A stretch of 36,486 bases of DNA from a virus, in IMG/VR virus record IMGVR_UViG_3300042475_000754, positions 1 through 36,486 of that record; one strand, 5' to 3'. The notes below the pieces were generated by a model. The model did not search any database. It was not told where the DNA came from and worked only from the letters and a program-made list of their open reading frames with translations. Positions within the stretch are counted from its first letter, which is position 1, and each line of letters starts with the position of its first letter. Shown in pieces: positions 2,217 through 11,674 of this stretch. Both the position numbers and the translations under genes were made by a program.

Positions 2217-2405
2217 TTACTTAGGATTATCTGTTTTATAAAAACCGTTACCTTTAAACTGTATACCAAATGGTGTAAAGTGTCTAGTCATTGGAGACTC
2301 ACATTCAACACAAGTGTATCCTGGATCATTTTCTGTTATTGATCTGTTAACTGACATTGTTGCATGTGCATCATCGTATGAGCACTTGTATTCGTACACT
2401 GGCAT
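2217..2405 (-). CDS. FmdB-like small zinc-ribbon protein
   Basis: This 62-aa protein begins MPVYEYKC and continues to a CVEC knuckle followed by a Phe/Gly-rich tail (GIQFKGNGFYKTD). That is the layout of the FmdB/CxxC_CxxC_SSSS zinc-ribbon family, whose members usually bind zinc and are annotated as putative regulators. The first knuckle is incomplete: only Cys8 is present, where CxxC is expected, and a His seven residues on may substitute. The ATG has an AAGGG ribosome-binding site 7 nt upstream. It is the first gene after a strong promoter and a structured leader RNA (2426-2504), so it is the likely target of any regulation by that RNA. The molecular function is unknown. Confidence 0.75.
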   Translation of the reverse strand: MPVYEYKCSYDDAHATMSVNRSITENDPGYTCVECESPMTRHFTPFGIQFKGNGFYKTDNPK

Positions 2406-2425
2406 TTTTTATCCCTTAATTATAA

Positions 2426-2504
2426 TGAGCAGTTTGAGGACATGCTCAGGTCCATCCTGCGGGTAACGGCCCGCTATCTGCGACTCCCCGATGAAGGGGT
2501 GCAG
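2426..2504 (-). ncRNA. Candidate structured leader RNA with two hairpins and an H-type pseudoknot
   Basis: Read on the minus strand from the predicted start near 2505, the RNA contains three elements. Hairpin A pairs CUGC (2504-2501) with GCAG (2481-2478) and CCCC with GGGG around a 6-nt loop. Hairpin B pairs CCCGC's partner strands GCGGG/CCCGC (2474-2470 with 2463-2459). Hairpin C pairs GGAC (2453-2450) with GUCC (2441-2438). The hairpin C loop contains UGAGCA, which is exactly complementary to UGCUCA at 2431-2426, giving a textbook H-type pseudoknot with 1-, 1- and 6-nt connectors. The segment is clearly richer in G+C than its surroundings. An AAGGG ribosome-binding site and the FmdB-like ATG follow within about 20 nt. 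This suggests a cis-regulatory RNA or riboswitch, but a free-standing small RNA is possible. I do not recognise a known class. Confidence 0.5.
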
Positions 2505-2510
2505 AGTTCC

Positions 2511-2539
2511 ATTATACTATTTCTTTCTCTTTCTCTCAA
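2511..2539 (-). promoter_or_regulatory. Sigma70-like promoter TTGAGA-17-TATAAT
   Basis: The -35 TTGAGA (2539-2534) matches 5 of 6 consensus bases. A 17-bp spacer separates it from a perfect -10 TATAAT (2516-2511). The -35 lies inside the last codons of the Hsp20 gene and the -10 begins right after its TAG stop. Transcription would start around 2504-2507, at the foot of the structured leader RNA. Confidence 0.75.
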
Positions 2540-2987
2540 CAGGAGATGCTACTACTTCTTCTGGTGTAAATGAATCGAGAATTTCAAATGTTTTTGGCTT
2601 TGCCTCTTCAGGAACATTTCTAATAACTAATACCTTTAGAATGCCATCAGACATTGCTACTGCTGCAACCTCCATAAATTCAGATAAAGAGAAGGTTCTT
2701 GCAAAAGACCTTGCACCGATACCCTTATGAATATATGTAGTTTCATTTTCAGATTCCGATGAACCCTTAATTGTTAGAACATTTTTTTCCTGTTCAACAG
2801 AGATATCTTCACGCTTGAATCCAGCCAAAGCCAGCTCAATCATATAGCTATCTTCACCTACCTGGGCCAAGTTGTATGGCGGATAGTTTGTTGAATTATG
2901 CATTACCTTTTCGAGATCTTTGAATTGGCGATCCCAGCCAATAAAAAATGGATCCTTAAAAAGATCCAATGTAAATGAGTTTACCAT
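2517..2987 (-). CDS. Hsp20/alpha-crystallin small heat shock protein
   Basis: This 156-aa protein has the small heat shock protein layout: an N-terminal segment starting FKDPFFIGWDRQF, then the alpha-crystallin domain from about residue 37 (YPPYNLAQ, YMIELALAGFKREDISV, LTIKG, FARTFSLSE) and a basic C-terminal tail. The GI(L) stretch near VAMSDGILKVLVIRNVPEE matches the conserved end of the domain. Family members are ATP-independent holdases. Phage copies are known, notably in cyanophages, and may protect virion or host proteins during infection. The ATG is preceded by AAGGGG and by its own promoter at 3078-3050. Confidence 0.92.
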   Translation of the reverse strand: MVNSFTLDLFKDPFFIGWDRQFKDLEKVMHNSTNYPPYNLAQVGEDSYMIELALAGFKREDISVEQEKNVLTIKGSSESENETTYIHKGIGARSFARTFSLSEFMEVAAVAMSDGILKVLVIRNVPEEAKPKTFEILDSFTPEEVVASPVERKRKK

Positions 2988-11484: not shown

Positions 11485-11674
11485 TTTTCTCCCTTAAACT
11501 GAAAGTAAATGACGGGCCTTCCTCGTCATAATCTATAACTAAATCCTTATTACTCACATTGACATCCAAGAATCTAAGGGTCGGAACCGTTAGCTTTCCA
11601 TGTTCTTCAAGTAGTGCAACTAGAACTTGATTCATACTAATTGAAGTAATTAAACCATCAACATCTTCTGTCAT
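11459..11674 (-). CDS. Hypothetical acidic small protein
   Basis: This 71-aa protein is linked to the polymerase gene by an ATGA overlap and to MazG by a 26-nt overlap. A helical N-terminus (GLITSISMNQVLVALLEEHG) is followed by beta-like strands (LTVPTLRFLDV, KDLVIDYDEEGPSFTFSL) and an acidic end. No family recognised. Its position suggests a replication accessory role. Confidence 0.75.
   Translation of the reverse strand: MTEDVDGLITSISMNQVLVALLEEHGKLTVPTLRFLDVNVSNKDLVIDYDEEGPSFTFSLREKNGVESDSD

Follow-up and report, generated by a model that had tools for sequence, protein, structure and literature searches.

The locus described here raises the question of what a compact RNA fold, placed between a small heat-shock gene and a short zinc-ribbon gene of a virus, is and what it might do. 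It lies on the minus strand of an IMG/VR virus record (IMGVR_UViG_3300042475_000754), all 36,486 nucleotides of which were analysed and are referred to below as the window.

Architecture of the locus

The 5' neighbour of the leader is hsp20 (2517..2987, minus strand, as are all features below; Hsp20 small heat-shock protein, HSP20 E 8.9e-17), whose stop codon occupies 2519-2517. It is followed by a TATAAT -10 box at 2511..2516, conserved at about 1.9-2.0 bits per position and constantly 12 nt 5' of hairpin 1. The latter, UCUGCACCCC-UUCAUC-GGGGAGUCGCAGA at 2477..2505, is strongly conserved in 92 distinct loci and lies at, or within a few nucleotides of, the 5' terminus predicted for the transcript. 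A second hairpin, GCGGG/CCCGC (2459..2474), constitutes a middle module that is variable among 91 leaders, and an H-type pseudoknot at 2426..2453 completes the leader; the knot matches our covariance model R1 with 43.6 bits (E 6e-11), and both of its helices covary (see below). The two hairpins and the knot, as given in the preliminary description, can thus be read directly on the minus strand. Stem S1 is formed by GGAC/GUCC (2453-2450 with 2441-2438) and stem S2 by GAGCA/UGCUC (2447-2443 with 2431-2427), connected by loop L1 (C-U, 2449-2448), a single spacer U (2442) and loop L3 (UCAAAC, 2437-2432). With the U-A pair added to S2, UGAGCA (2448-2443) stands opposite UGCUCA (2431-2426), and the connector lengths are then the 1, 1 and 6 originally reported. 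The full six-base complementarity holds here; the conserved S2 of the family comprises 5 bp, the sixth pair (U-A) being present in only about 60% of copies.

Downstream, a Shine-Dalgarno-like AAGGG (2413..2417) is found 8 nt 3' of the pseudoknot and outside it, ahead of a 62-residue zinc-ribbon (FmdB-like) gene (2217..2405, AUG at 2405; Zn_ribbon_8 E 1.8e-5, under the Pfam cut-off). The ribosome-binding site is thus where it had been placed; the proposed control of translation through it is unsupported, with the site outside the knot and the distance to the start codon very variable across the family.

The richness in G+C that had been pointed out in this AT-rich genome was borne out, positions 2426-2505 reaching 60% against 39% for the window, a level attained by 0.14% of 80-nt segments. 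The folding energy of the leader, calculated with pseudoknots disallowed, is unremarkable (z -1.4). Since plain folding energy is not unusual, the single sequence is weak evidence and the case is built on comparison.

A family of pseudoknots with two covarying helices

The exact 28-mer of the pseudoknot is present in 16 viral contigs. When S1 was freed (pattern CTGAGCAN5TCAAACTGCTCA), at least 119 viral contigs in IMG/VR matched (totals from this collection are lower bounds) and nearly all the sites proved to have a self-pairing S1 of differing sequence; the reversed pattern gave no match in IMG/VR. A generalised scan of the viral loci examined returned 269 knots as against two in reversed sequence, and an enlarged scan 804 matches as against 14, of which 481 of the former have distinct flanks. 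With the reversed-pattern and reversed-sequence controls near empty, chance can be rejected.

The family consensus is S1-C-U-RRGCA-N-S1'-NN-AAACU-GCYY, where S1 has 4-7 bp with an inner C-G pair and S2 pairs RRGCA with UGCYY. The sequence of S1 is nearly free across the family; the unpaired C-U, the AAAC and the C-G pair closing S1 are near-absolutely conserved. The length of the third loop is mostly constant, such that 436 of 467 copies outside the hsp20 group span 27 nt. A subtype ending in AAAGGCUC occurs at loci L019, L035 and L129 and in Rhizobium phage RHph_TM30. All 33 whole records behind the loci hold the knot, with up to 8 copies per record; a single copy is present in 433 of 553 loci. 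The strand of the knot is mostly that of the flanking genes.

Pairing was assessed without presupposing the helix in question. When the loop alone is fixed, 135 of 157 sites pair S1 at all four positions; when S1 is fixed together with the unpaired bases, S2 forms all four of its pairs in 138 of 140, its variants including AAGC/GCUU, UAGC/GCUA, GGGC/GCCC, GGCC/GGCC and AGGC/GCCU. Among 56 distinct cores every cell pairs, two-sided changes affect seven of nine pairs and the covariation score is 0.529, compared with 0.130 for shuffled and at most 0.08 for slid alignments; because these cores were pre-selected for pairing, the score is supportive and not independent. The cleanest test is provided by variant counts over all of IMG/VR. 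The compensated AAGC/GCTT occurs at least 120 times and its one-sided counterpart AAGC/GCTC 82 times, while for GGGC/GCCC the figures are at least 120 and, for one-sided GAGC/GCCC, 10. The outermost pair of S2 is therefore tolerant and the next pair is not. In the same four sets, about 70% of sites have all three of the free outer S1 pairs, and each helix admits G-U pairs, as expected of RNA. A signal acting at the DNA level was rejected, given those G-U pairs and a strand that mostly follows the flanking genes.

Comparison of the copies thus shows the core to be a conserved RNA structure in which both helices covary: the compensatory changes that the preliminary description had named as support for its proposed selection on RNA structure are found in both stems, among the unconditioned sites as well as in the IMG/VR counts. 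We regard the structure and the distribution of the knot as nearly certain.

The leader of the hsp20-linked phages

A viral scan with the hairpin 1 pattern yielded at least about 90 distinct leaders downstream of hsp20. In 88 of 91 of these, TATAAT is near-invariant at its distance from hairpin 1, which supports a promoter; the region at the corresponding -35 spacing matches TTGACA no better than random sequence in the 91 leaders. The TTGAGA formerly read as a -35 element (2539-2534, with a 17-nt spacer to TATAAT) lies inside the final codons of hsp20 and is not conserved. Given a random-like -35 zone that is here coding sequence, the -10 assignment is retained and the -35 dropped. Transcription is expected to begin in the opening bases of hairpin 1.

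In 56 of the 91 leaders a CGGG/CCCG hairpin forms the middle module; 22 have a different module there, and 13 something else or nothing. The alternative module reads GUCGG..ACAGCGAC..UAAAUA.CUG. In its conserved form GUCGG(N4-6)ACAGCGACNNUAAAUANCUG, it separates hairpin 1 from the pseudoknot in these 22 of 91 leaders (L044, L075, L052, L084 and 18 other hsp20 leaders) and was not found elsewhere in the viral loci examined; it could be another small pseudoknot, pairing GUCG with CGAC and CAG with CUG.

The pseudoknot itself was found in 86 of the 91. Of the remaining five, L039, L061 and L110 are cut by the end of the contig or locus, and L040 and L122 have diverged. The distance from the end of the knot to the start codon is held to 17-22 nt (n=40), a tightness seen only in hsp20-linked leaders; that from the upstream stop codon to the knot varies between 43 and 99 nt. 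The gene that follows also varies, encoding an FmdB-like zinc ribbon, an SNase, a luciferase-like protein or a 2OG-Fe(II) oxygenase (relatives including L115, L120 and L084). Since cargo genes are swapped in the slot after hsp20 while promoter and leader stay, the leader behaves like a cassette for cargo expression. Hairpins 1 and 2, which make up most of the leader, are particular to this one phage group; the pseudoknot, a module in its own right, is far more widely spread.

Distribution among phages and bacteria

Phages carrying the knot have hosts among the Firmicutes, Alpha- and Gammaproteobacteria, cyanobacteria and actinobacteria, and crAss-like phages carry it too. Copies were checked by sequence in Roseobacter SIO1, Lentibacter ICBM1, Celeribacter P12053L and Paracoccus ParMal1 (the last of the Autographiviridae); in Lactobacillus KC5a, phiEF-1.1, Staphylococcus StB12, the S. 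aureus phages 80 and B166 and the thermophilic phage D6E; in Bacillus Page (with an imperfect S2), Mycobacterium Labelle and crAss-like cr7_1 and cr124_1; and in the cyanophages Synechococcus S-EIVl, Planktothrix PaV-LD and Nostoc NMeng1. EE36phi1 (Schitoviridae) has an imperfect copy, and phiETA, phiNM4 and further S. aureus phages match by BLAST only. The collection of annotated phages was searched by BLAST, which is blind to copies with another S1, and so gives no host-range proportions.

Two copies flank tRNA-Lys in Pasteurella PMP-GADVASU-IND (L270, 1201-1229 and 1462-1490); their S2 strands differ, GAGCA in one and GGGCA in the other. The E. coli Chaseviridae flopper and SA91KD have a knot with a mismatched S1. 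In Chaseviridae of E. coli (L271 885-1560; L261) the imperfect-S1 knot is contained in non-coding sequence, several hundred bases long, that precedes a tRNA and in which Rfam models found nothing above threshold except the tRNA.

Bacterial genomes are essentially without the knot and the family is virus-specific. Scanning the GTDB collection gave eight matches, none with an S1, and in a sample of 1,155 genomes, drawn from the classes to which a Blautia, a Gilvimarinus and a Flavobacterium genome belong, the count was at background, two against one for the reversed pattern. These figures come from a pattern with a built-in control, the whole-genome covariance model search, with 150 candidates scored, being insensitive.

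The family was not found catalogued and is absent from Rfam, the public RNA family library. No Rfam family matches the knot, whether at gathering score in the window or at E up to 10 over 2350-2600, and further Rfam scans of the loci yielded none for it, in keeping with the earlier failure to match the leader to a known class. In the open literature, of which our search had partial coverage, we found no paper with the motif in context.

Placement relative to genes, tRNAs and promoters

Placement was assessed on flank-distinct copies outside the hsp20 group, with genes called on contigs as mechanical open reading frames, so that individual distances are approximate. For 326 copies a same-strand gene ends within 300 nt upstream (median distance 11), and 135 of these start 3-9 nt past its stop codon. 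In intergenic regions of at least 90 nt, 103 of 143 knots are closer to the upstream stop (p 1.4e-7); the distance to the next start codon is broad, with a median of about 60 nt. Among the 33 tRNAs that begin on the same strand no more than 100 nt downstream, 20 do so 2-7 nt after the knot; a single nearby tRNA is on the opposite strand. The isotypes are Trp, Cys, Thr, Asp, Tyr, Lys, Glu, Ser, Met, Leu and Asn. The families of the flanking genes are diverse, including tail fibre, glycosyltransferase, polymerase, primase and capsid as well as tRNA.

The immediate flanks have characteristics of their own. G is scarce in the ten bases 3' of the knot, at 9% compared with 19% beyond them (7% and 21%, respectively, in a stricter set), and a hairpin abuts the 5' side in 31% of cases, against 19% in shuffled sequence. 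TATAAT occurs within 100 nt after the knot in 35 of 461 copies in the sense orientation, compared with 13 in antisense and 11 upstream, which is what one would see if the transcript before the knot is, in many cases, closed by it. Runs of U are not enriched, TTTTTT being found within 100 nt downstream in 51 of 461 copies in sense and 55 of 461 in antisense, and for this reason an intrinsic terminator was rejected. Stimulation of frameshifting or readthrough, suggested by copies 3-9 nt after stops, was set aside, as stops and preceding codons vary and there are copies far from stops. Also set aside was a tRNA-like 3' end (CCA), since C makes up just some 40% of the bases at the first positions of the flank.

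In the Firmicutes phages 80, KC5a and D6E the knot lies between portal or other head genes and the scaffold and capsid genes, and in phiEF-1.1 a knot directly precedes scaffold and capsid. A terminator-like hairpin with a U-run adjoins the knot, on its 5' side, in D6E and phiEF-1.1. Comparison of 80alpha (L267 2380-2520) and phi11 (L268 2770-3125) with the S. aureus phages 80 and B166 (L262, L266), where a knot is present before the scaffold gene, reveals a natural swap in which a terminator-like hairpin with a U-run replaces the knot.

Some copies are placed otherwise: 22 lie between divergent genes and others in long non-coding arrays (L144, L136). In L136, a 70-kb phage record, a stretch of 73 nt located 94 nt after a knot (11486-11558) scores just above the tmRNA gathering threshold and is probably a tRNA-like element.

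Comparison with known systems

The likeness to preQ1-I and SAM-II riboswitches noted in the preliminary description extends to the compact H-type topology with an A-rich third loop. However, the Rfam covariance models of these switches have no match in the window, queuosine and SAM genes are lacking beside the knots (the neighbours being FmdB-like, SNase, LLM, 2OG oxygenase, tail, capsid, polymerase and tRNA genes) and the Shine-Dalgarno sequence here is 8 nt outside the knot, not sequestered. The present family is placed at gene ends and before tRNAs, and since the same knot follows stops and precedes tRNAs and unrelated genes, the proposal of a switch of that kind finds no support.

STAXI elements consist of small pseudoknots, which can be arranged in tandem with hairpins between them, and are linked to mobile-element genes (PMC2864571). 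STAXI (RF01728) is enterobacterial, usually with three tandem units, and its model has 153 positions, whereas the present family is mostly single-copy, found in phages and placed by stops and tRNAs. A search with RF01728 gave no match in nine records including plasmid F, where the control genomes were silent too, and other Rfam scans of the loci likewise gave no STAXI match.

The xrRNAs of eukaryotic RNA viruses are compact viral pseudoknots at which an exonuclease is halted, so that a protected RNA remains. A conserved viral pseudoknot with covarying helices is common to both, and the exonuclease stop is what we propose here; by contrast, the present family is found in DNA phages, measures 28 nt and lies after stops and before tRNAs. 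No bacterial equivalent of xrRNAs was found in the literature searched. The REP/BIME elements of enterobacteria are intergenic structures that shield upstream mRNA from 3' exonucleases, but they are simple palindromes in bacterial chromosomes and not a pseudoknot family in viruses. The translational operator of T4 gene 32 is an H-type pseudoknot in a phage mRNA, serving one gene and one autoregulator, unlike the hundreds of unrelated gene contexts seen here. Rfam models of the phage RNAs GOLLD and ROOL have no match in the window or the tRNA-adjacent loci. For a ToxI-like type III antitoxin, tandem repeats by a toxin gene would be expected, whereas here mostly single copies are found and no toxin gene is among the family matches listed for knot-flanking genes.

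Possible functions of the knot

The positions of the knot, behind stops, in front of tRNAs and upstream of new promoters, argue that it marks one border of an RNA segment. Its indifference to the neighbouring genes, the free S1 and the invariance of the bases that would pack into grooves further argue that the fold matters, rather than a gene-specific signal. The reading that we favour, tentatively, is a virus-specific block acting in cis to protect RNA segments at operon and tRNA-processing boundaries, which would account for most of these observations; we infer its mechanism as follows. The C-U of L1 would dock into the deep groove of S2, and the AAAC of L3 would line the minor groove of S1, resulting in a small knot that exonucleases would unwind poorly and that may act as a mechanical block to host ribonucleases. 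Separation of the segments by RNase P, by another endonuclease or through a new promoter would leave the knot at the exposed end, and where a knot lies behind a gene, removal of the tRNA or mRNA that follows would leave a protected 3' end. In the window, the knot would close a short leader transcribed from TATAAT, with the 5' end buried in hairpin 1, and would lie just beyond the expected footprint of an initiating ribosome. Such a leader might stabilise the mRNA of the cargo gene after hsp20, here FmdB-like, or might instead build up as a stable transcript some 80 nt long. A model confined to RNase J is weakened by the copies in Pasteurella and E. coli phages (those of E. coli with a mismatched S1). 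Ribonuclease resistance, processing and transcript stability are, in all this, roles that the knot may have, as judged from sequence comparison.

The same invariant C-U, AAAC and S1-closing C-G could instead mark a binding site. A riboswitch-like or gp32-operator-like site for a ligand or protein, its aptamer controlling translation or stability of the next gene, fits these unpaired bases, the very constant loop lengths, the 17-22 nt spacing in hsp20-linked leaders and the precedent of T4 gene 32; we nevertheless consider it unlikely, as the neighbouring genes have no common function, a gene start is often not near, the Shine-Dalgarno sequence is outside the knot and no Rfam riboswitch matches. 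The knots 2-7 nt ahead of tRNA 5' ends, the G-depleted 3' flank and the intergenic positions between unrelated genes are also what a processing signal would produce, with a host endonuclease recognising the knot or its flank, cutting polycistronic phage mRNA at that point and isolating tRNAs for RNase P. Yet the factor would have to be common to hosts of at least five phyla and to tolerate a nearly free S1, and on the sequences available such a signal seems distinctly improbable. Slightly more doubtful again is an antitermination or pausing RNA resembling HK022 put, in which the nascent knot would modify RNA polymerase and allow terminator read-through: the conserved promoter just upstream in hsp20 leaders and the terminator-like hairpins with U-runs adjoining the knot in D6E and phiEF-1.1 could suggest it, but in these two phages the hairpin comes before the knot, copies occur at gene ends and before tRNAs, not near promoters, and the carriers use different polymerases (ParMal1, EE36phi1 and many host-polymerase phages). 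Hardly probable at all is a decoy acting in trans to titrate a host factor, for example a ribonuclease or, by mimicry of ToxI, a type III toxin. It would suit a virus-specific element of which some genomes have more than one copy (up to 8), and ToxI antitoxins are also small H-type pseudoknots; it sits poorly with the preponderance of single-copy loci and has no need of precise placement by stops and tRNAs.

The proposed ribonuclease block, if taken as a pure 3'-end function, leaves unexplained the copies in 5' leaders, between divergent genes and in non-coding arrays. Similarly, the hairpin found at the same spot in 80alpha and phi11 implies that the knot is replaceable there or has another role.

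Implications

More broadly, and with less assurance than we attach to the block itself, the knot may represent a new virus-confined class of structured RNA: one 28-nt design, shared by phages of hosts in at least five phyla, that would engage a universal host component (an exonuclease, RNase P and tRNA processing, or the ribosome) and would correspond in bacteria to the xrRNAs of eukaryotic viruses, marking sites of cutting and protection in polycistronic transcripts. That hundreds of unrelated phages, and not bacteria, have kept the knot points to a common problem of their transcripts and a shared solution. The knot belongs in RNA family libraries and in phage annotation, where the regions concerned are now blank or called promoters. 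It occurs in model phages of S. aureus, Lactobacillus, Bacillus and Roseobacter, which opens its function to direct testing. If the ribonuclease block is true, it would explain how adjacent operon segments are held at different levels, and the knot would offer a portable part for stabilising RNA.
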